A stretch of DNA of 53,325 bases, taken from NCBI GenBank assembly GCA_005772855.1, contig SXIK01000184.1, positions 1 through 53,325 of the forward strand, given 5' to 3'. This document shows, in pieces, positions 1 to 53,101 of the stretch. Under the pieces are notes generated by a model. That model was not told the DNA's origin, did no database searches, and saw nothing but the letters and a program-made list of their open reading frames with translations. Position 1 is the stretch's first letter; every line of letters starts with the position of its first letter. The position numbers and the translations under genes were made by a program. This stretch comes from Planctomycetia bacterium. GTDB taxonomy: Bacteria; Planctomycetota; UBA8108; SXIK01.

Positions 1-272
1 GAGCCGCAAACGGCTCGGAGGGAGCCGGCGCCAGCGAGAGCTGGCGGCTCCCGAGAGCCTGGCCCGGAGGCGCACGCGCAGCGCGCGACCGGAGGGGCCG
101 CGTGTCGTTGTTGCCTCCACCCTCGCTCCACCCTCGCTCCACCCTCGCTCCGCTCGGAGGCGAGCCGTCGTGGGGGAGGGTCCGCCTCCCCCACCAGTAG
201 AAACGAGCAGCAGACTTGAGATGGTCCTCCTCTGCCCATTCGGAATGTCTCACGTTTGGGCGCGCGAGGTAT
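1..272 (-). repeat. Dispersed structured repeat, copy 1 (cut by window start)
   Basis: Read on the minus strand from 272 down to 1, this matches 35454-35725 with only about a dozen differences, and its first part matches 53147-53325. It begins with ATACCTCGCGCGCCCA, 16 nt after the stop codon of the cytochrome/DUF1549/DUF1553 gene and in the same direction as that gene. Inside are a GTGGGGGAGG/CCTCCCCCAC hairpin, three 11-nt tandem units (119-129, 130-140, 141-151 on plus), a GC-rich stem at 60-95, a 13-bp bulged hairpin at 20-52 and GAGCCG/CGGCTC at 1-16. It continues beyond the left edge. No protein family was recognised in it. Confidence 0.9.
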
Positions 273-288
273 AGATGCTGATGGGGCG

Positions 289-3200
289 TCAGTCCACATA
301 GACAAATTCGTTCAGGCACAATACTGCATGGCAAAGCTCCACCAGCGCCTGGGCGCTGACAACGGACGCGTCACCCCCGGCGACCTTGCTCTGCTGGTGG
401 AAGAACTCGAGCATGCGACTGTGCTCCGATTCGCTGGGCAGCCGCCCGAGGGCAATCTGGTAGGCTCGGTTGAGGGCGGTGCCGGGCGCCACATCCTTTG
501 TGGGGCAAATTCGTTGCGCCAACCTCTCCGCCTGTTGTCGAACAAACGGTGAGTTCATGAACGCCAGCGACTGAGTTGGCACTGTCGTGCTGATCCGCTC
601 GCCAAAGCTCTGGGTTGGCTCCGGCGCGTCAAAAAGGGTCAACCAGGGTATGAGCTCACTGCGCTTCACGCGCAGGTAAATGCTCCGGCGCGGGTTGTCC
701 TCGAGAACGCTCGGACCGAACATGCTCGTATCGGAATTTCCACCGACGGCCAGCAGGGAGTCGCGGATGATCTCCGCGTCCAGCCGCCGGGGCTTGTAGT
801 GCCACAAGTAGCGGTTGTCCGGATCTATCTTGAGGTTCTCCTCCGAGACTTCGTTGGACTGCTGGTAGACCGCGCTGAGCAGGATCTGCTTGTGCAACGG
901 CTTGAGCTTCCAGCCTCCCCTGACCAGTTGAGCCGCGAGCCACTCCAGCAACTCCGGGTGCGTGGGCCGTTCGCCTTGAGCGCCGAAATCGTTTGGAGTG
1001 CGAACGATCCCATGACCGAAATGACGCTGCCAGAGTCGATTGACCATCACGCGCGCCAGGAGCGGGCCGGCTCCGTGCTCCACGTCCGTTATCCAGGCCG
1101 CCAGCGCTGCGCGCGAGTCGGCTGGACTGGCGCCAGGTTGCGGATTGGTCGGCGCCGCCGAATCATCGCCCCGCCAGAGCACCTGGATGATGCCGGGCTC
1201 CGCCTTGCCCTGTTTGTTGTCGACTTCGCCACGCCGCAGCAGAAAGACATCCTGCCCACCGGCGGCCGTCGAGTAGACTTCCGTGAGCGCCGGACGCGGT
1301 TCCGTCGCCGCTTGATCGCGTAGGGGCTGAAAGACTTTCGCCGTCTCCGCTTCGAACAGACTGAACCAGCGGACCATCGACGCGCGCATGGACTCGGGCA
1401 ACTTGTTCTCATTGGCCTGGAGGATTGCTCGAATTTCACCGAGGTTTTGCGGGGCGATATCGCCTGCCCATGTCGCTGGATTCGGCTCCGTGGTGAGCGA
1501 AAATCGAATCCGGCCCGGGGCGAGGTCGAGGAACTTCAGTTCGAACGCCAGCTCGGTGCCGCCCCGGAAGCCAGGCAGCGGTGTCTCGAGCTCGAAGACC
1601 GCTGCGTTGTCTTTTCCTGCCGTGGAGCGCACAACCCAGGCGGTCGTGGGCTGGTTGTCGACGGCGTTACTCAGAGGCTGGCCCACGTCCTCGAAGGCTG
1701 CGAAGACGGGTTTGAGATTCAGTTCTTGCGGCAGGTCCCAGGTGTTGGGGTCGAGTGGCCGTGCGGTCACTCTCAACTCGGCCAGTTGAAAGCTTCCGTC
1801 GCTGTTCAAGCCTGGCCCCCGCCGCGGCAGCGACTTGTCTGTGAACGCGTCCATCCGCAGAGCCGTGATGTTGTTCTGAAAGGTATGCACGGTCACGTGG
1901 TATTGCTCTTCGTTGCCGACCGTCCGGGGCTTGCCGCGTCTCGAAATCTTGGTGCCTGGAATCAGCGAGCCGTCGTGAGCGACGATGCCCCCCGGCAGCC
2001 ATTTCAGCCACGAGCGTTCCGCCTCGAGCGCCACGGGTTCCAGCACCTGCCAGTGCGGCGACTCAGGCTGTTTCGGCAATTCGGCCGCGCTCCATGCTTC
2101 GAATCGTTTCGGCAGCTCCTTGTCGGCGAACTTGCGCAGCGCATCGACCAGTGACTCTCGCTCCTGGCGGTGCCGCTCCAGAGCCTGCTGCGTGGCGGCC
2201 GGATCGGAATCAAGCTGTCGTGGACTCTGTACAGTACGCGCGAAAGCAGCCGCCAGCGCATAGTAATCCTGCTGCGGAATCGGATCGTACTTGTGGTCGT
2301 GGCAACGGACGCAACCGAGCGTGAGCCCCAGCATGGATCCGCCAACCGTCATCAGCATGTCGTCGAGCTGGTCGTAACGTATGCGCTCGATGGTCTTGGC
2401 CGTGATCTGCCCCGGGTAAGGTCCGGCGACGAGAAAGCCAGTGGCGGCGGCTGCGAGGAAGTCATCGGGCTGTCGCACGTCCCCGGCCAGCTGCATCCGC
2501 ACGAACTGGTCATAGGCCATGTCGCTGTTCAGCGCCCGCAGGACCCAGTCGCGATAGTGGTACGCACCGGGACGAAAAGCATCGAACTCGTACCCGCCGC
2601 TCTCGGCAAAGCGGGCGACGTCGAGCCAGTGCCGGGCCCATTTCTCGCCGTAGTTTGGACTCTCAAGGAGGCGGTCGATCACCTTCTCGAATGCCTGAGG
2701 TGACTCGTCCTTTACAAACTCCTCGATCTGCTCAGGCGTGGGCGGCAGGCCGACCAGGTCGAAGTATGCGCGGCGAATCAACTTTTCTCTTGAGGCCGGA
2801 ACGTTCCGGGTGAGCCGTTTTTTTTCTTGAGCGTCGATGACGAAGCAGTCGATGGGCGACTTGACGCTCTGCCCGTCCGGCACCGTGGGAGGCGTGACGG
2901 TCAGGAGAGGCTGGAATGACCACCACTTCCGGCCCTCGGCGATGTTGATCGTGCGCAAGGCCCTGGCTACCACGCCTCCTCGCCTCGGATCGGGGGCGCC
3001 CATGTCGATCCACTTCACAAAGTCGGAGATGACTTCGTCGGCGAGCTTGCCCCCTGGCGGCATCTCGGGGCCCTCATACCTGAGAGCCTTGATGAGCAGG
3101 CTCTCGGCGGACTTTGCCTTCACGATGGCTGGACCGCCATCGCCGCCTGTGAGCAGGCCTTCAGCCGAATCCAGGTAGAGTCCGCCCTTCAGCTTTTTTG

Positions 3201-3375
3201 CGTCCCGGGCCTGAGCCGAATGGCAACCGTAGCAGTGCTTCACGAGCACCGGTCGAATCTTCTGCTCGAAGAACACGATGCCCTCGTCGGCCTTCGTCTC
3301 CGCCTGTGCCGGCACAGCGATCGCCGCGAGTATCGCTTCCGCCAGGATCGCCATTATTGTCCATCGAGGGATCAT
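289..3375 (-). CDS. Planctomycete-type cytochrome C / DUF1549 / DUF1553 protein
   Basis: Large exported protein of 1028 residues. A hydrophobic signal peptide ends near AVPAQA. A planctomycete-type cytochrome C domain follows, with the heme motif CYGCH at 48-52 and a likely axial methionine in MPPGG at 105-109. A DUF1549 domain spans about 174-385 and contains a second CxxCH (CVRCH, 355-359). A DUF1553 domain fills the last 250 or so residues. Such proteins are abundant in Planctomycetes; an electron-transfer or polymer-degradation role has been proposed but the function is not settled. The ATG at 3375 was preferred to two upstream TTG codons; the ribosome site is weak, so the start is uncertain. 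The usual DUF1501 partner is not adjacent. The gene is third in a minus-strand run with the aldolase and the MDR dehydrogenase, after a 247-nt gap. A copy of the structured repeat begins 16 nt past its stop. Confidence 0.9.
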   Translation of the reverse strand: MIPRWTIMAILAEAILAAIAVPAQAETKADEGIVFFEQKIRPVLVKHCYGCHSAQARDAKKLKGGLYLDSAEGLLTGGDGGPAIVKAKSAESLLIKALRYEGPEMPPGGKLADEVISDFVKWIDMGAPDPRRGGVVARALRTINIAEGRKWWSFQPLLTVTPPTVPDGQSVKSPIDCFVIDAQEKKRLTRNVPASREKLIRRAYFDLVGLPPTPEQIEEFVKDESPQAFEKVIDRLLESPNYGEKWARHWLDVARFAESGGYEFDAFRPGAYHYRDWVLRALNSDMAYDQFVRMQLAGDVRQPDDFLAAAATGFLVAGPYPGQITAKTIERIRYDQLDDMLMTVGGSMLGLTLGCVRCHDHKYDPIPQQDYYALAAAFARTVQSPRQLDSDPAATQQALERHRQERESLVDALRKFADKELPKRFEAWSAAELPKQPESPHWQVLEPVALEAERSWLKWLPGGIVAHDGSLIPGTKISRRGKPRTVGNEEQYHVTVHTFQNNITALRMDAFTDKSLPRRGPGLNSDGSFQLAELRVTARPLDPNTWDLPQELNLKPVFAAFEDVGQPLSNAVDNQPTTAWVVRSTAGKDNAAVFELETPLPGFRGGTELAFELKFLDLAPGRIRFSLTTEPNPATWAGDIAPQNLGEIRAILQANENKLPESMRASMVRWFSLFEAETAKVFQPLRDQAATEPRPALTEVYSTAAGGQDVFLLRRGEVDNKQGKAEPGIIQVLWRGDDSAAPTNPQPGASPADSRAALAAWITDVEHGAGPLLARVMVNRLWQRHFGHGIVRTPNDFGAQGERPTHPELLEWLAAQLVRGGWKLKPLHKQILLSAVYQQSNEVSEENLKIDPDNRYLWHYKPRRLDAEIIRDSLLAVGGNSDTSMFGPSVLEDNPRRSIYLRVKRSELIPWLTLFDAPEPTQSFGERISTTVPTQSLAFMNSPFVRQQAERLAQRICPTKDVAPGTALNRAYQIALGRLPSESEHSRMLEFFHQQSKVAGGDASVVSAQALVELCHAVLCLNEFVYVD

Positions 3376-32073: not shown

Positions 32074-35000
32074 ATGAGGCTCACGAGGGGTCGCCTGACG
32101 ATCCGAACGCTCCAGTATCACGCTCGAGCGTACGCGCTTGTCATGATCGTCACCGCTGTGGCCGCCGCAATCATCACCGGCGCCCTCTTCGTGGGGGACT
32201 CGGTACGGGGCAGTCTGCGGGCCCGTGTCGAGGATCGGCTCGGTGACATCGAGTTTGCTCTCACGGCCCCAGGTTATTTTCGTGAGGCTCTGGCGGCCGA
32301 GCTTCAGGCCTCGAGCCCCACCACGATTCTGCGGTCCGTGGCGATCCTTCTGGTGAAGGGGACGGTCACGCACGCAGACACGGGTGCGCGGGCCAGTGAA
32401 GTCAACGTGCTCGGGGTGCCTCGGGAGCTCTGGGGCTTCTGGGCAGATCGATTCACGTTTCCCGCCGGGGTCCTTGACTCGCTCAGGGAACGTGCCGTCG
32501 TCATCAATGAGAGCCTCGCGGAAATGGTGGGAGCGGGGGGCGGCACGGCGATCCTGGTGCATGTCTCGAAGGACAGTGACGTGCCCGCTGAACACGCGCT
32601 CGGCCGCAAGGCCGGCACGGTGCGGCCCATTCGCCTCGAGGTCGGGGGGGTGCTTCCGGACCACGGCCCGGGGCTCTTTGCTCTCGAGAGCTCGCAGGTG
32701 CCCGTGCGTAACGTCTTCGTGCCGCTCGAGACGCTTCAGCGCTCGCTGGGGCGAGAGGGGCAGGCAAACAGTCTGCTCGTGAGCGCCCGTGCCTCCCCCC
32801 AGGCTCTCCAGACTCTTCTCGGGCTCACCTGGAAGATCGAGGATGCCGGCCTCCGATTCAGGGTCGATGACGCGATTCAACGCGTTGTCGTCGAGTCCAG
32901 GGCGCTCCTCTTGCCTGCGGGCGTCTCCACCCTGGTGAAGATGGCTGCGAGTCGGCGTCAGATGGGCGCTTCGGAGACGCTCACTTACCTTGCCAACACG
33001 ATAGCCCTGGGAAGTCGTGAAATCCCTTATTCCACGGTGGCGGCTTGCGATCAGATCCTTGACCACAGCCTCCAGGCCGGCACGATCGCGCTCAACCAGT
33101 GGGCGGCAGACGACCTTGGGGCCAGGGTGGGGGACACCCTCCGGCTCAAGTATTTCATTGCGGACGACGACCACCGCCTCCGGGAGGTCGAGGCTGCGTT
33201 TCTGCTCTCGGAGATCGTGCCCATGGAGGGCGACACGGCCGACCCGGGCTGGACCCCCGAGTACCCAGGAATCTCAAACGCGAGGAGCCTGCGGGCCTGG
33301 GATCCGCCCTTTCCGGTCGATCTTGACCGCATTCGCGAGAAGGACGAGGACTACTGGCGTGACCACCGGACGACCCCCAAGGCCTTCCTGCCGATCGCCG
33401 ATGGCAAACGGCTGTGGGCCAGTCGCTTTGGAGACCTGACGTCGCTTCGATTGCGGCCGCTCTGGAAAGATGGGGACCCAGTCAGCCATCGCGCGAAGGG
33501 CCTCGACGACGAGATCGCACGGGCAATCAAGCCCGAGTCCCTGGGCCTCACGTTTCGTGCCGTCAAGGCCGACGGGCTCAGGGCAGCCCAGGGAGGCACC
33601 GACTTCGGCGGCCTCTTCGTGAGTTTCAGCTTCTTCCTGATTGCGAGCGCGCTCATCCTCCTTTCCATGGTATTTCGCATCGCCTGCGACCGGCGAGCGC
33701 GGGAATTGGGAATCTTGAAGGCAGTGGGTATCGACCGGGGGGCTCTCTCCAGGCTCCTGCTCGTTGACGGTGCCATTGTGTCTCTGACTGGATCGGCGCT
33801 GGGTTGTTGGCTCGCTCTTGCTTACGCGAGTTTACTGCTCCTTGGACTTCGGACGATCTGGAGGGGCGCCGTGAACGCGCCGTTCCTCGAGTTACACACG
33901 ACGTGGGGCAGCTGGCTGCTTGGCTGTGGGATTACCCTGGTCTGCGCCCTGGGCGCCGTCGGCCTGGTCGGCCGTCGCGTCGCAAGCTCGATGCCACGAA
34001 GCTTGCTCGCGGGATCGATTCCCGAGGACAACGCCGACGGCTCGAGCGGGGCACGGCTGCAACCCCCCGGGCGCTTGAGCTTCGCGATTGCGGCCGCATC
34101 GCTCCTGGCGGGATTCGCGCTGGTTGTCTGTGGCGCCCTCGGCTTGATCGCCGCCGAGGCCGGCTTCTTCGGAGGAGGCGCCGCAATTGCACTGGGTGCT
34201 CTGGCGTTTTTCCGAGCCTGGCTTCGAGCACCTCGTGGGCACGTGGCGACCCGGCCCCGGGCACGCTCCATTCTGCTCCTGGGGGCCATGAACGCAAGAC
34301 GCTCTCCGTCGCGGAGCCTTCTCACCACGTCTCTCATCGCTTCCGCCTCGTTTGTCATCGTCGCCGTGGCCGCCATCGGGCGTGATCCCGGTTCCCTCGA
34401 GCCGCGGAAGAGCTCCGGGAATGGGGGCTTTTCGCTGATCGGCAAGTCGTCCATCCCGATCACGGTATCGCTGTCGCTTCCGGAGGGTCGCGAGGCGCTT
34501 GGTCTGGGCCCGGAAGCCTCGCGAGTCCTCGAGAGAGCCCGGGTGTTCCCGTTTCGCGTTCGTCCCGGCGACGACGCGAGCTGCCTGAATCTTTACCGCC
34601 CACAGTCACCGCGGCTTCTCGGAGCGCCTCGCGACTTTATTGAGCGCGGAGGGTTCGCCTGGGCCTCGTCCCTTCACTTGACGAACGAGGAACGGGCGAA
34701 TCCATGGATCCTGCTCGATCGGCGCTTCAGCGATGGCGCGATTCCCGCGGTCGGTGATGCGAGCACGGTCCAGTGGATCCTTCACTCCGGCCTGTCCGAA
34801 GACATCGTGATCCGGGGAGACGATGGTCAAGAGATCCGGCTGCGGCTTGTTGGACTTCTTTCCCACAGCATCTTTCAGGGCGAGCTCGTCGTGTCGGAGG
34901 CTCGGATGCTGGAAGCTTTCCCTCGCATTTCAGGCAACCGCTGGTTTCTTTTCGAGGCGGCACAAGACGACGCTGGAGTCATTACCCGGGAACTGGAGTC

Positions 35001-35454
35001 GGGGCTTGAATCCCACGGCTTCGACGTCGAGGCGACAGGAGCTCTCCTTGCAGGCTACCAGGCGGTCGAGAACACCTACCTGTCGACATTTCAGTTGCTC
35101 GGCGGGCTCGGTCTCCTGCTCGGGACCTTGGGGCTCGCCGCGATCCTGGCGCGAAACGTGCACGAGCGCAGGGGCGAGCTTGCACTCCTCAGAGCCGTCG
35201 GAGCCTCAAGGAGTACTTTGGCCCGTCTGGTCCTTGGTGAAACGGCGCTCCTGCTCGCGGCCGGGCTTGCCTGCGGAGCGGGTAGTGCTGGCCTGGCGGT
35301 GCTTCCGGGCGCCCTGTCACGCTCCGGCAGCGTACCGTGGGCAGCGCTGGGCGCCACGTTCACAGCCATCGTGACGGCGGGTTTTCTGGCCTCCATTGTG
35401 GCAGTTCGCGCTGCCCTGCGTGCGCCGCTCGTTCCCGCCCTGCGAAGGGACTGA
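32074..35454 (+). CDS. Very large FtsX/YbbP-type ABC permease
   Basis: 1126 residues, larger than LolC/LolE or E. coli YbbP. TM helix at the N-terminus (VMIVTAVAAAIITGALFVG), then a large extracytoplasmic region of about 450 residues. The first FtsX domain is near 520-650 (LILLSMVFRIACDRRARELG and ILKAVGIDRGALSR), and another soluble region follows. A second FtsX domain forms the C-terminus (ARNVHERRGELALLRAVGAS). The duplicated domain layout fits YbbP-like exporters. Start at 32074 follows GGAGGAG and an earlier AGGAAGG. The stop codon TGA shares its last base with the first base of repeat copy 2. With the ATPase and thioesterase it probably handles a membrane-embedded acyl compound. Confidence 0.93.
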   Translation: MRLTRGRLTIRTLQYHARAYALVMIVTAVAAAIITGALFVGDSVRGSLRARVEDRLGDIEFALTAPGYFREALAAELQASSPTTILRSVAILLVKGTVTHADTGARASEVNVLGVPRELWGFWADRFTFPAGVLDSLRERAVVINESLAEMVGAGGGTAILVHVSKDSDVPAEHALGRKAGTVRPIRLEVGGVLPDHGPGLFALESSQVPVRNVFVPLETLQRSLGREGQANSLLVSARASPQALQTLLGLTWKIEDAGLRFRVDDAIQRVVVESRALLLPAGVSTLVKMAASRRQMGASETLTYLANTIALGSREIPYSTVAACDQILDHSLQAGTIALNQWAADDLGARVGDTLRLKYFIADDDHRLREVEAAFLLSEIVPMEGDTADPGWTPEYPGISNARSLRAWDPPFPVDLDRIREKDEDYWRDHRTTPKAFLPIADGKRLWASRFGDLTSLRLRPLWKDGDPVSHRAKGLDDEIARAIKPESLGLTFRAVKADGLRAAQGGTDFGGLFVSFSFFLIASALILLSMVFRIACDRRARELGILKAVGIDRGALSRLLLVDGAIVSLTGSALGCWLALAYASLLLLGLRTIWRGAVNAPFLELHTTWGSWLLGCGITLVCALGAVGLVGRRVASSMPRSLLAGSIPEDNADGSSGARLQPPGRLSFAIAAASLLAGFALVVCGALGLIAAEAGFFGGGAAIALGALAFFRAWLRAPRGHVATRPRARSILLLGAMNARRSPSRSLLTTSLIASASFVIVAVAAIGRDPGSLEPRKSSGNGGFSLIGKSSIPITVSLSLPEGREALGLGPEASRVLERARVFPFRVRPGDDASCLNLYRPQSPRLLGAPRDFIERGGFAWASSLHLTNEERANPWILLDRRFSDGAIPAVGDASTVQWILHSGLSEDIVIRGDDGQEIRLRLVGLLSHSIFQGELVVSEARMLEAFPRISGNRWFLFEAAQDDAGVITRELESGLESHGFDVEATGALLAGYQAVENTYLSTFQLLGGLGLLLGTLGLAAILARNVHERRGELALLRAVGASRSTLARLVLGETALLLAAGLACGAGSAGLAVLPGALSRSGSVPWAALGATFTAIVTAGFLASIVAVRAALRAPLVPALRRD

Positions 35455-35725
35455 TACCTCGCGCGCCCACACATGAGACATTCCGAATGGGCAGAGGAAG
35501 ACCATCTCAAGTCTGCTGCTCGTTTCTGCTGGTGGGGGAGGCGGACTCTCCCCCACGACGGCTCGCCTCCGAGCGGAGCGAGGGTAGAGCGAGGGTAGAG
35601 CGAGGGCGGCGGCAACAACGACACGCGGCCCCTCCGGTCGCACGCTGCGCGTGCGCCTCCGGGCCAGGCTCTCGGGAGCCGCCAGCTCTCGCTGGCGCCG
35701 GCTCCCTCCGAGCCGTGTGCGGCTC
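35454..35725 (+). repeat. Dispersed structured repeat, copy 2 (complete reference copy)
   Basis: It starts ATACCTCGCGCGCCCACAC at the last base of the FtsX-gene stop and runs in the gene's direction. Elements in order: TGAGA/TCTCA pairing (35474-35478 with 35505-35509); a 10-bp stem GTGGGGGAGG with CTCTCCCCCAC side (35532-35556); GCTCG/CGAGC; three 11-nt units (35575-35607); a nested stem GGCCC...CCGG-GCACGC/GCGTGC-CCGG...GGGCC; a 13-bp bulged stem at 35674-35706; and GAGCCG/CGGCTC at 35710-35725. Copy 1 matches through to its last base, so the true right end is unknown. The unit length of 11 is not a multiple of three, arguing against a conserved protein. Confidence 0.92.
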
Positions 35726-35845
35726 CGCCAGCGCGCCGCAAACCCCATCCTCGGCGCCTGATGGGCGCCGGGCGCCTCTGGCGCGAGCAGCCGCAACCTT
35801 TCGCAGGCTGCAAAAGGTCTCATCGCTGCCCGCGTGCGGTATATT
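35726..35845. other. GC-rich hairpin-rich spacer after repeat copy 2
   Basis: Contains GGCGCC/GGCGCC at 35753-35769 and a pair GCAGCC/GGCTGC enclosing ACCTTT...AAAGGT near 35788-35818. It lies between convergent FtsX and metallophosphatase genes. It may be a continuation of the repeat or a terminator region; copies 1 and 3 do not extend far enough in the window to decide. Confidence 0.4.
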
Positions 35846-36649
35846 TCACCACTTCCCTCTCGAGCGCTCCTTCGACGGCAGAACCTCGAGGCAGGTCGTC
35901 CACCAGCCGCTCTCGATCGTCTCGATGAATTCGGCTGGAAGTCCCTCGGCACGCATTTCTCTTGCGAGCTGCTCGTGGTCATACGCGACAGGAACAAACT
36001 CCACCTCGAGTCCATGCTCATCGGACGAGCGTAGCAGCGTGTACCCAACCTGGGTGGTGCCGTCGTTCTCCGGGCGGCCGAGCACTCCGACGTTGGCGAA
36101 AAGCTGACCTCCAGAAAGTCGCCGACGCCACTTGAGCCCAGTGTGGGTGGCGAGGATTACGTCTGCGTCGTGATTGCGGAAGAGCTTCAGGAGGAAGGCG
36201 TCCGGTGTTGTCGACTCCCAGAGAAACTCGTTCCTCTGGCGCGGGGAGCCGTGGCAGAGGAGCACTCGCTTCTCCGCCATCACGAAGCGGATCTCTCCAG
36301 GTAGAGCCGCGAGCCACTCCCGGTTCCGTGGCGATGTTTTCTGTAGAGTGTATTGATAACTGATGCGGGCGAAGTGGTTGTCGCGTGGGTCCGTGTAGCC
36401 GCACTGGCAGTCGTCGAGACCCCTTGCGATGCTGTCGTCGTAGTTGCCAGATAGGGTTTGAACGTTGTTTTCCCGCAGGATCGGGAAGACAAGATCCGGG
36501 TGGGGACCGAACGCACCGAGGTCTCCGAGGCAGTAGAAAGCCTTCGCTCCGCGGGTACGAGCGTCGGTGATCGCAGCACGAAGGGCCCAGTGGTTCGAGT
36601 AAATCCCGCCGAAAAGAGCCACGGGGGCTTCTGTGGAGCCCCCGCTCAA
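35846..36649 (-). CDS. Degenerate metallophosphatase-like protein
   Basis: 267 residues from a TTG start that overlaps the radical SAM stop as TTGA, with GGGAG 6 nt upstream. The pattern follows calcineurin-like phosphatases: CLGDLGAFGP, SGNYDD, LLCHGSP and LATHTGL. However, the usual SDxHGN opening reads GGIYSNHWAL, so the Asp and His are lost, and the final His of GHTH is Gly. The residues that would hold metal 1 are therefore missing, while those for metal 2 (Asp, Asn, His, His) are kept. It may bind one metal, have altered chemistry, or be a binding protein. Upstream in-frame codons up to 36847 overlap the radical SAM gene and are not taken as start. Last gene of the four-gene operon. Confidence 0.8.
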   Translation of the reverse strand: MSGGSTEAPVALFGGIYSNHWALRAAITDARTRGAKAFYCLGDLGAFGPHPDLVFPILRENNVQTLSGNYDDSIARGLDDCQCGYTDPRDNHFARISYQYTLQKTSPRNREWLAALPGEIRFVMAEKRVLLCHGSPRQRNEFLWESTTPDAFLLKLFRNHDADVILATHTGLKWRRRLSGGQLFANVGVLGRPENDGTTQVGYTLLRSSDEHGLEVEFVPVAYDHEQLAREMRAEGLPAEFIETIESGWWTTCLEVLPSKERSRGKW

Positions 36650-40467: not shown

Positions 40468-40473
40468 ATTATA
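40468..40473 (-). promoter_or_regulatory. Possible -10 element for the gamma-glutamyltransferase operon
   Basis: On the minus strand this reads TATAAT and its downstream end is 8 nt from the ATG at 40459. This spacing fits a leaderless or near-leaderless transcript. No good -35 match is found at 17 nt, so the call is tentative. Confidence 0.3.
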
Positions 40474-40733
40474 CTCCTGGCGGGGGAGGAAGACCTCCCC
40501 CGCACCGAGGCGTCTGGCGGCGTGCCCTCACGGGGCCGGCGTCGAAATGTCTTCTTCGTGGCCCCGTGGGCTACGTACCGCTGCGACGAGCCGGGGTCAG
40601 GCCGCTCCAGGTCGCAAGGGTCGCCGCTCGATTCGACACGAGCGACGCAGAATTCGTCTTGAAGCAACACCAAAGTAGCACATTGAGTCTCAACTCGAAT
40701 GCATTTATTTCGAGCGGTGATGCTTTCGAAATC

Positions 40734-49669: not shown

Positions 49670-52600
49670 ATGATACCTCGTAGTTGGCTCAAGATATTGG
49701 CACTGGCTCACAGCCTGTTGGACACCACCCTGGCTGCTCCACTGCTCAAGGACGACCCTGTCCAGCTCATGAACTACGGAATTGGACGGCTGGAGGAGTA
49801 TAGCTATCTGGAGGCGTACGGAATTTTCGACCGTCTGGCAACCGCCTATCCCGGCTGGGAGGCAGCCCATGCGAACCGCGGCATGGCTGCGTTGAACGTC
49901 CAGAAGGATGAGAAGGAAGGTGTCGATTATCTTCCCATCGCCGAGAAAGCTTTTTCGAGGGCGCTTGAGATCAATCCCCGGTGTGTTCAGGCGCTGGTAG
50001 GCCGCGGCATCCTCTACTACCACACAGGCCGGATCGATCTCATGCTGGAGGACTACGTCGCCGCGGCCGCGATCGAACCCGACGATCCCCACATCCTGTG
50101 CCAGAAGGCCGTGGCCCTCATCGAGAAGGGCCGAACGGAAGAGGCTCTCGTCGCCTTCGAGCGGGTTCTGAAGCTCCAGCCGTCCTTCTCGACAGCGATG
50201 TATCGTCTGCGGGAGCTTTTTGCCCGCAAACGGCAGCTTGACCGCATGAAGGATGTCCTCCGCCGCTTTGCGAAGCTTGAAACGACTGAAAGCGGGATCA
50301 AGACCGGGGTCAAGTACGGCGAGTGCGGCAAGTACAGCTTCGCGCTCGCCGGCACGGTTCCCCCCGGGTGGAAGGCCGCAGCACCACAGTGGCGCCCTGC
50401 CCCGGCGCCGTCCTTCTCGACACCGGTGAAGATCACTCAAAAACCTGCCCTCAAGAGGATTGGCCCCAACGGCAAGTCGCGGGCCCCTGCCTTCGCTGTC
50501 GGCGACCTGGACCGTGACGGGGGGCTTGAGCTCGTTTTTTGCGGCGAGAAGGACGAAAACGATGCCGGCTCGGTTACTCTCTACGGCCTCGACGATTCGG
50601 GGGCGTGGGGTTTGCGGGAGCGCTTCCCTTTCGCCGATGCCGAGGTGTGTGCGATGGGCGATCTCGACCTGGACTTCGACTCGGACATCGTCCTTGCCGG
50701 ACCGGGGTGGCTCAAGCTTCTCGAGAATGACGGCGGAGGCAAACTGTCTGTCAGGGAGCTCGACGTGAAAGGCACTGACTTCGCAGGTTTGCCAATGCGG
50801 CTGACCCTGGTGGATGCGGACAGCGACGGGGACCTTGACATAGTCTCTCTCCGGGTGGAGCGTCAGGCGGAGAAGTGGCGGTCGCGCGTGGAGATCCTGA
50901 GCAACGATCGAAAGGGCAAGTTTCAGGAGATCGCGGCCAGAGCCAGTGTCGGTCCGTTCGATTTTCCCGCTGCGGAGCTGGTAGTCGCGGACCTGGACAG
51001 TGATGTCGACCTTGATCTCCTCGTCTTCGATGGCTCGACCGGCGTGGTGCGAACCTTCGCCAATGACCGAGCCTGGGATTACCATGAGGTGAACCGGGGC
51101 CCCAATGCGCCGAGCGCGCCGGGCCTTGTCTCGACGACAGGCGGCGACTTCGACGGTGATGGCGATGAGGACCTCGTTCTTTTTTGCGGTGATTCCCTTC
51201 GATTCTGGCGGAACGTGGGCGGGCTCGTGCTGGAAGAGGAGGGCGAGTTCACCAGGCGCTTTGGCGCCCTGGGCGGAAACGCGGGAGTGCTCGCTGACTT
51301 CCGTGGGGCGTTTGAGACGAGCCTCCTGGCCCTTGGCACGGGGGGAGGCAGAGAGAGCGCGGCTTTCCTGGCCTCGCCGACGGCTGAGAAGGCGGTCCAG
51401 CTCGAGTGGACGGGTAAGGGGGCGCCGGCGGACCGAAGTGCTCTCGTGACCGTGATCCGTGAGGGGCGTGCCCCGGAGTTGGTGGTCTACGACACAGTGG
51501 AGGGCGGACACTCTCTTGCCCTGCCTTCAGCTCAGGGCTGGTTTGTCCTGCAGCTTGAAGGATCGAAGCGATGGACTTCGAAAAAGGAAAGGTCGAACTT
51601 TGATGGTATTGGAGCCTCGGTTGAAATACGCAAGGGCACGAAGGCCTTGCGCTACTGGCTCCACGGTGGAGCCGGCGGAGCCGGGCGGCAGTCCGTGCGC
51701 GGGTTCTGTGGCCTCGAGGGCGACACTTCCGCCGATTTCGTACGAATCATCTGGCCCGACGGCGTGCTTCAAGCAGAGAAGGGGCTCACCAGGGGCCGCG
51801 TAAATGTCGTTCAGGAGATCGAGCGAAAGCCTACCTCGTGTCCCATCCTCTTCGCCTGGACGGAGAGTGGCTTTGAGTTTGTTGCGGACTTTCTCGGCGT
51901 CGGTGGGCTGGGTTATCTTGAGTCTTACAGAGTCTACTCAAAGCCGGATCCAAGTGAGTACGTGCTCTTGCCAGATCTCGGAGCCGAGGATGGTTTCTAC
52001 AAGCTCGACATCCTCGAGCCGCTTGAAGAGTGTACCTACCTTGACGAGTTGAAGCTCACGGTCGTCGAGCACCCGAGCGAGGTGAATGTGATTCCCGATG
52101 AGATGTACGCGATTCGGGGTCCTCAGCCGGGATACAAGCTTCTTTCATTCCGGGAGCGAAACTTTCCCGTTCGCGCCTCGAACGACGCAGGTAACGACGT
52201 GACCCAGGAGCTAAGAGAGGCGGATCGGCGGTACGGAAACCAGGTCCAGCCAGATCCGGCCTTTCTCGGGCTCTGTCTGCGCACACATGCCATCGAGCTC
52301 GACTTCGAGAACCGTATTCGCGACATGCTCGAGGGAAATCCCGGGGCGAAGCCTTGCCTCTTTCTGTACGGGTTCGTCAAGTACGGTTACTCGACAACCA
52401 ATTTTGCCGCCTGGCAAGCGAGCGCGGCGCCCAGCGCGCCAAGCGTCGGGGTGGAGCGCGAAGGGAAGTGGGTCACGTTGAGAGAGGAGTGGGGATTTCC
52501 GGCCGGATATCCTCGCTACATGTCGATTGACTTGAGCGGGCTCCTTGGCCGAGGTGACCGGCGCCTGCGTGTTGACACGAACCTCGAGATCTACTGGGAT

Positions 52601-53101
52601 CAAGCCTTCCTTGCGGATGTCAGCGTCGCGGACTTCACGGTGGTGGAGCTGAGCTGGGACGCAGCAGAGCTGGCTTTCCGCGGCTTTCCGCGGGAAGTAT
52701 CTCCCGATGGCGCGTTGCCGGGTATCTACCTGCACGGCGAATTTGAACCCGAAGCCCAAATGAAAGCTTTCCCTGGTCGCTACACCCGCCATGGCGATGT
52801 TCGTGGGCTGCTCCAATCCGCAGATGATCGTCTCGCGATTCTGGGACCGGGCGACGGCCTCGAGCTGAAAGTGAGAGCCGATCGACTCCTGCCGCTTTCG
52901 TCAGGCCGGCGCCGCACCTTTCTGCTCAAGGCCTTTGGTTATTGCAAGGACATGGACCTCTACACTGCGCACCCCGAGCGCATAGAGCCCTTGCCGTTCA
53001 AGGCGATGAGCGGCTATCCGTTTCGGCCGGAAGAGGCGGCGGCCTCCAGAGCCGCGCACGCGGACTACACCAACGAGTGGAACACTCGAGAGGTGAAGTA
53101 G
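49670..53101 (+). CDS. Large TPR / FG-GAP / UnbV-like surface protein
   Basis: 1143 residues. A short hydrophobic N-terminus (WLKILALAHSLLDTTLAA) may be a signal peptide. TPR repeats cover about 30-200 (YGIFDRLATAYPGWEAAHAN, AFSRALEINPRCVQALVGRG, AVALIEKGRTEEALVAFERV). An FG-GAP/VCBS-like propeller follows (about 255-530; AVGDLDRDGGLELVFCG, VVADLDSDVDLDLLVFDG). An ASPIC/UnbV-like segment (about 640-710: GIGASVEIRKGTKALRYWLH, FVRIIWPDG) leads to a long C-terminal region of unknown fold. The ATG at 49670 was preferred to TTG 49640. Probably cell-surface binding; repeat copy 3 starts 45 nt after the stop. Confidence 0.88.
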   Translation: MIPRSWLKILALAHSLLDTTLAAPLLKDDPVQLMNYGIGRLEEYSYLEAYGIFDRLATAYPGWEAAHANRGMAALNVQKDEKEGVDYLPIAEKAFSRALEINPRCVQALVGRGILYYHTGRIDLMLEDYVAAAAIEPDDPHILCQKAVALIEKGRTEEALVAFERVLKLQPSFSTAMYRLRELFARKRQLDRMKDVLRRFAKLETTESGIKTGVKYGECGKYSFALAGTVPPGWKAAAPQWRPAPAPSFSTPVKITQKPALKRIGPNGKSRAPAFAVGDLDRDGGLELVFCGEKDENDAGSVTLYGLDDSGAWGLRERFPFADAEVCAMGDLDLDFDSDIVLAGPGWLKLLENDGGGKLSVRELDVKGTDFAGLPMRLTLVDADSDGDLDIVSLRVERQAEKWRSRVEILSNDRKGKFQEIAARASVGPFDFPAAELVVADLDSDVDLDLLVFDGSTGVVRTFANDRAWDYHEVNRGPNAPSAPGLVSTTGGDFDGDGDEDLVLFCGDSLRFWRNVGGLVLEEEGEFTRRFGALGGNAGVLADFRGAFETSLLALGTGGGRESAAFLASPTAEKAVQLEWTGKGAPADRSALVTVIREGRAPELVVYDTVEGGHSLALPSAQGWFVLQLEGSKRWTSKKERSNFDGIGASVEIRKGTKALRYWLHGGAGGAGRQSVRGFCGLEGDTSADFVRIIWPDGVLQAEKGLTRGRVNVVQEIERKPTSCPILFAWTESGFEFVADFLGVGGLGYLESYRVYSKPDPSEYVLLPDLGAEDGFYKLDILEPLEECTYLDELKLTVVEHPSEVNVIPDEMYAIRGPQPGYKLLSFRERNFPVRASNDAGNDVTQELREADRRYGNQVQPDPAFLGLCLRTHAIELDFENRIRDMLEGNPGAKPCLFLYGFVKYGYSTTNFAAWQASAAPSAPSVGVEREGKWVTLREEWGFPAGYPRYMSIDLSGLLGRGDRRLRVDTNLEIYWDQAFLADVSVADFTVVELSWDAAELAFRGFPREVSPDGALPGIYLHGEFEPEAQMKAFPGRYTRHGDVRGLLQSADDRLAILGPGDGLELKVRADRLLPLSSGRRRTFLLKAFGYCKDMDLYTAHPERIEPLPFKAMSGYPFRPEEAAASRAAHADYTNEWNTREVK

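Follow-up and report, generated by a model that had tools for sequence, protein, structure and literature searches.

Locus and anatomy of the repeat

The stretch of DNA analyzed here (the window, 53,325 nt) is the whole of contig C169 in a 5.03-Mb draft genome (244 contigs, 96% complete). Its gene content marks the host as a planctomycete, with two genes of the window carrying PSCyt1, PSCyt2, and PSD1. It holds three copies of a repeat, which an earlier note on this DNA had described as a structured element placed in sense orientation at gene 3′ ends (Table 1). All three copies are present and are 95-96% identical over their common part. The distances to the neighboring stop codons were also given correctly: the TGA at 35452-35454 abuts the middle copy, the gene at 289-3354 (minus strand) ends 16 nt from the first copy, and the gene at 49670-53101 (plus strand) ends 45 nt before the third one. 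The extent of 35454-35725 assigned to the middle copy covers the larger part of the element but needs correction on both sides, as the first base of its own is T35455, with A35454 belonging to the flank, and its true end lies at 35841. Delimited in this way, the element starts with TACCTCGCGCGCCCA and finishes with TGCCCGCGTGCGGTA. The first and the third copy are incomplete, as the contig begins in one and ends in the other.

Table 1. Features of the window that bear on the repeat
Feature	Position	Strand	Basis
FtsX/MacB-type permease gene; stop abuts the element	32074-35454	+	gene call, domain search
Probable MITE, complete copy, 387 nt, TACC...GGTA	35455-35841	+	right end common to 81 copies
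Left terminal inverted repeat, TACCTCGCGCGCCCACACATGAGACATTC	35455-35483	+	family consensus against the IS630 transposase-gene end: L151 24/29, L164 22/29
Internal 11-nt tandem units of the GAGCGAGGGTA type	35575-35609	+	unit number differs between copies
Right terminal inverted repeat, TACCGCACGCGGGCAGCGATGAGACCTTT (reading inward)	35813-35841	-	family consensus 22/29 against L151_R, also against L164_L
Right-flank TA (probable target-site duplication)	35842-35843	.	flanking dinucleotide count
Calcineurin-like phosphoesterase gene, convergent; stop 4 nt from the right end of the element	35846-36649	-	gene call, domain search
Second copy, truncated at the contig start, with its left end at 271	1-271	-	
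Third copy, truncated at the contig end	53148-53325	+	

The terminal inverted repeats of the element are imperfect and 25-29 nt long, and the left and right ends of the family consensus agree at 19 of 29 positions, compared to 9 expected. The left flank of the window copy is GA, located inside the TGA stop codon, and the TA duplication is therefore not intact at this site. It is tempting to speculate that, if this flank was once TA, the permease gene read into the element and its present stop codon arose after the insertion. Both ends could be assigned in 44 copies of the genome, which are 176-409 nt long and mostly near-identical, with a mean column identity of 85% among 18 long copies when deletions are included. 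Differences in length among the 44 stem mainly from clean deletions of internal hairpins and from the number of 11-nt tandem units. With such short and variable lengths, the copies could not encode a transposase.

Copy number and flanking dinucleotides

Allowing up to two mismatches, we counted 90 instances of the left end and 81 of the right end in the host genome. The reversed control pattern gave 0 matches against the 90 of the left end, which places the repeat far beyond chance, and we put the family at some 90 to 100 copies. Of the 488 contig ends, 81 (a sixth) have an end of the element no more than 450 nt away, indicating that many copies were split by the assembly; accordingly, the window itself starts and finishes in copies. 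Immediately outside the element, the two adjoining bases are TA in 80 of 94 cases on the left and in 76 of 89 on the right (156 of 183 ends together), a pattern that is the mark of TA target duplication. The remaining ends (around 15%) have no TA and frequently show TTC/GAA instead. Under closer inspection, TC on the left or GA on the right, often as TTC/GAA, replaces TA mostly at one end only (TC in the left flank of L018, L030, L038, L074, and L087; GA in the right flank of L015, L034, L085, L102, and L105; also L150). Comparison of the joined flanks of intact copies with same-genome loci around copies gave no match spanning an empty site among the matches listed.

The earlier note had proposed a search of the host and of other planctomycete genomes, which yielded the roughly 90 copies in the host, whereas the complete left end including TATA is absent from the 391 further genomes of the phylum (392 scanned). 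In the relatives G001, G005, and G007, matches were limited to pieces of internal hairpins, none of them with the ends of the element. The repeats found in G007, a genome of the same order (L131, L141, L145, and L148), are mostly located at contig ends and have other flanks; what they have in common with the element is limited to the internal hairpin module CCTCGGCGCCTGATGGGCGCCGGGCGCC, as if repeat families swapped modules.

The ends of the repeat are shared with IS630-family elements

Scanning the end pattern through 84,980 prokaryote genomes returned 17 contigs, 16 of them titled planctomycetes and 1 Acidobacteria. At 8 of these loci, an L151-like IS630 transposase, or a piece thereof, terminates within the terminal repeat. 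The L151 protein itself has 415 amino acids, scores 187.5 bits against the NCBIfam IS630 model (cut-off 100), and contains the Pfam domain DDE_3, and it is the final codons and the stop of this transposase gene that make up the TACCTCACGCGGCCAGCAGTGAGAC repeat. Likewise, locus L164 holds an element of 1,178 nt (1267-2444, TA-TACCGC...GAGGTA-TA) that has both ends and the TA flanks of our repeat and whose reading frame is interrupted. Over the 29 terminal positions, the ends of the repeat and those of L151 and L164 are identical at 22-24, while random sequences starting with TA match at a mean of 9 of 29 and only 2 of 200,000 reach 20. Short elements of ~128 nt with similar ends occur in other planctomycetes (L160 and L161).

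These common ends lead us to regard the repeat as a miniature inverted-repeat transposable element (MITE) of the IS630/Tc1-mariner type, a reading to which we assign a probability of about 0.93. L151 and L164 resemble it in their ends and TA flanks and differ in coding for a DDE transposase, in L164 with an interrupted frame; the MITE retains the ends of such an element only, and its interior bears no relation to theirs. A second repeat family of the host genome, about 100 nt and longer, older, and more diverged (L041:3936-4037, window 40470-40568, and many further loci), has ends like TACTCCGCGCGGCCATGATTGGGAC / CCCGCGAGGAGTATA that resemble the same IS630 ends, and its TATA ends have served as insertion sites for copies of the first family.

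The host assembly yielded no transposase with ends of this type, and the L151 protein had no match there. As the assembly is a draft, the missing partner is weak evidence of absence, and we infer that the MITE was mobilized in trans by an IS630-family transposase whose gene has since disappeared or escaped the draft assembly. The host genome does contain one DDE_3 gene, on contig C126 within an interrupted gene, with different ends (TTAGTGCCGTC...). This IS630 was ruled out as the parent, its inverted repeats being TTAGTGCCGTCTTTCATAAG; it corresponds to an unrelated IS630-type element with 35-nt inverted repeats (L129:797-2130), which lies within an apparently split macroglobulin-like gene. 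Similarly, the ends sought automatically around the transposases of the relatives G112, G129, G176, and others were not of the TACC type.

Placement relative to genes

To place the copies relative to genes, we used a simple codon-usage gene finder trained on the regions around them, whose calls are approximate, and compared the copies with intergenic TA sites without the element, for which the same calls were used. At first glance, the three window copies suggest that the repeat points the same way as the gene upstream, as had been claimed. Genome-wide, the left neighbor is sense to the element in 45 cases and antisense in 48 (p 0.84), and the right neighbor in 40 and 45 cases, respectively (p 0.66), so that orientation is random. 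Even the middle copy of the window, which was thought to follow this rule, has convergent genes on its two sides and runs antisense to one, the phosphoesterase gene. What the genome-wide tabulation does reveal is a milder enrichment at 3′ ends that is independent of orientation. Specifically, 43 of the 89 gene 3′ ends that face an element (48%) are located within 50 nt of it, compared to 24% at intergenic TA sites (p about 5e-7), while facing 5′ ends are depleted at this distance (10 of 88, 11%, versus 23%).

Of 37 intact copies whose gene context was clear, 18 lie in tandem gaps (5 along the genes and 13 against them), 10 in divergent gaps, and 9 in convergent gaps, the latter compared to 11% expected (p 0.014). 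None of the 37 is gene-interior, although 79% of the TA sites in the sampled DNA are genic. Several genes extend 19-22 nt into the element, with only their last codons truncated and the stop codon supplied by the terminal repeat.

Origin of the placement and alternative explanations

We propose that an IS630-family transposase encoded elsewhere would recognize both ends (TACC...GGTA) and move the noncoding element of 0.2-0.4 kb into a TA dinucleotide, thereby duplicating the TA. Selection would then remove those copies that land in genes or just upstream of starts, and the survivors would be intergenic, densest right behind stop codons and in convergent gaps, and in either orientation. Most likely, the enrichment at 3′ ends is due to this purging of gene and promoter insertions, as for the RUP elements of pneumococcus (below), and a mild insertion preference could also be its source. 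Since selection against such insertions would produce the enrichment, no function is needed to explain it. The earlier suggestion of a selected 3′-end RNA element (a terminator, mRNA stabilizer, or regulator), kept in sense after genes, we consider very improbable. The repeat does form a very stable fold (z scores of -4.2 on the plus and -2.8 on the minus strand versus shuffles), and its copies are enriched close to stop codons, but such a fold is expected from a GC-rich element with inverted repeats, and its orientation is random toward the genes on both sides, with most tandem-gap copies even running against the genes. A terminator-like site (a stem followed by a T-run) was sought and not found, nor was there an Rfam match within the window. 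Compensatory change was seen at 1 of 114 pairs with an unfavorable covariation term, a comparison that has low power in copies this near-identical. Moreover, whole internal hairpins are freely lost among copies, and the left end is missing from the 391 other genomes of the phylum that were scanned.

The alternative that the earlier note offered, a mobile element that aims at gene ends, fares better in its first half than in its second. The inverted repeats, the flanking TA, and the ends shared with IS630 elements all speak for mobility, whereas targeting is not needed to account for the enrichment. A transposase that actively seeks out the 3′ ends of genes, rather than selection acting after random TA insertion, would fit the excess of nearby 3′ ends, the excess in convergent gaps, and the insertions that truncate no more than the last codons of a gene. 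We nonetheless deem it unlikely, because the loss of genic and promoter insertions through selection yields the same pattern and also predicts the observed depletion of facing 5′ ends, and because IS630-family transposases are known to require little beyond TA. The same convergent bias is moreover found in RUP (PMC3049150). A palindromic repeat of the REP/REPIN type, moved by a RAYT (Y1-HUH) transposase, would likewise be extragenic, numerous, and rich in strong hairpins, and REPs have been reported from planctomycetes (PMC3733652). REPs are 20-40 nt long and carry GTAG or CGTC tags, whereas here two defined ends of the TACC type lie 0.2-0.4 kb apart, flanked by TA and matching IS630, and this origin therefore has a next to negligible chance of being correct.

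Relation to known elements and significance

The closest parallel to the IS630-type MITE is RUP, which is tied to IS630-Spn1, has TA ends, and is found in excess between convergent genes (PMC2229807, PMC3049150). Like the MITE, RUP is noncoding and intergenic and is present in about 110 copies with IS630-like terminal inverted repeats. It differs in being 107 nt long and AT-rich, whereas the MITE is 176-409 nt long, GC-rich, and modular, and in that the proposed partner of RUP, IS630-Spn1, resides in the same genome. The Correia elements, or NEMIS, of Neisseria are comparable by their description, with 24-nt terminal inverted repeats, TA ends, many copies, and, as in the MITE, more than one size class (PMC2229807), although their host belongs to a different phylum. 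A limited literature search found no prior description of this planctomycete family.

Taken together, the MITE represents a new family within a well-known class of elements, tied to an IS630 clade through its ends, and not a gene-ending signal of fixed direction. It also illustrates that three copies in a single window can hint at an orientation rule that 90 copies contradict. There is a slim chance that the element, after its insertion behind genes, has come to serve dozens of them as a GC-rich 3′ stabilizer or transcript end, whichever way it points, or else that the transposase prefers 3′ ends. If the former held true, a transposon family would have remodeled where transcripts end in this planctomycete.
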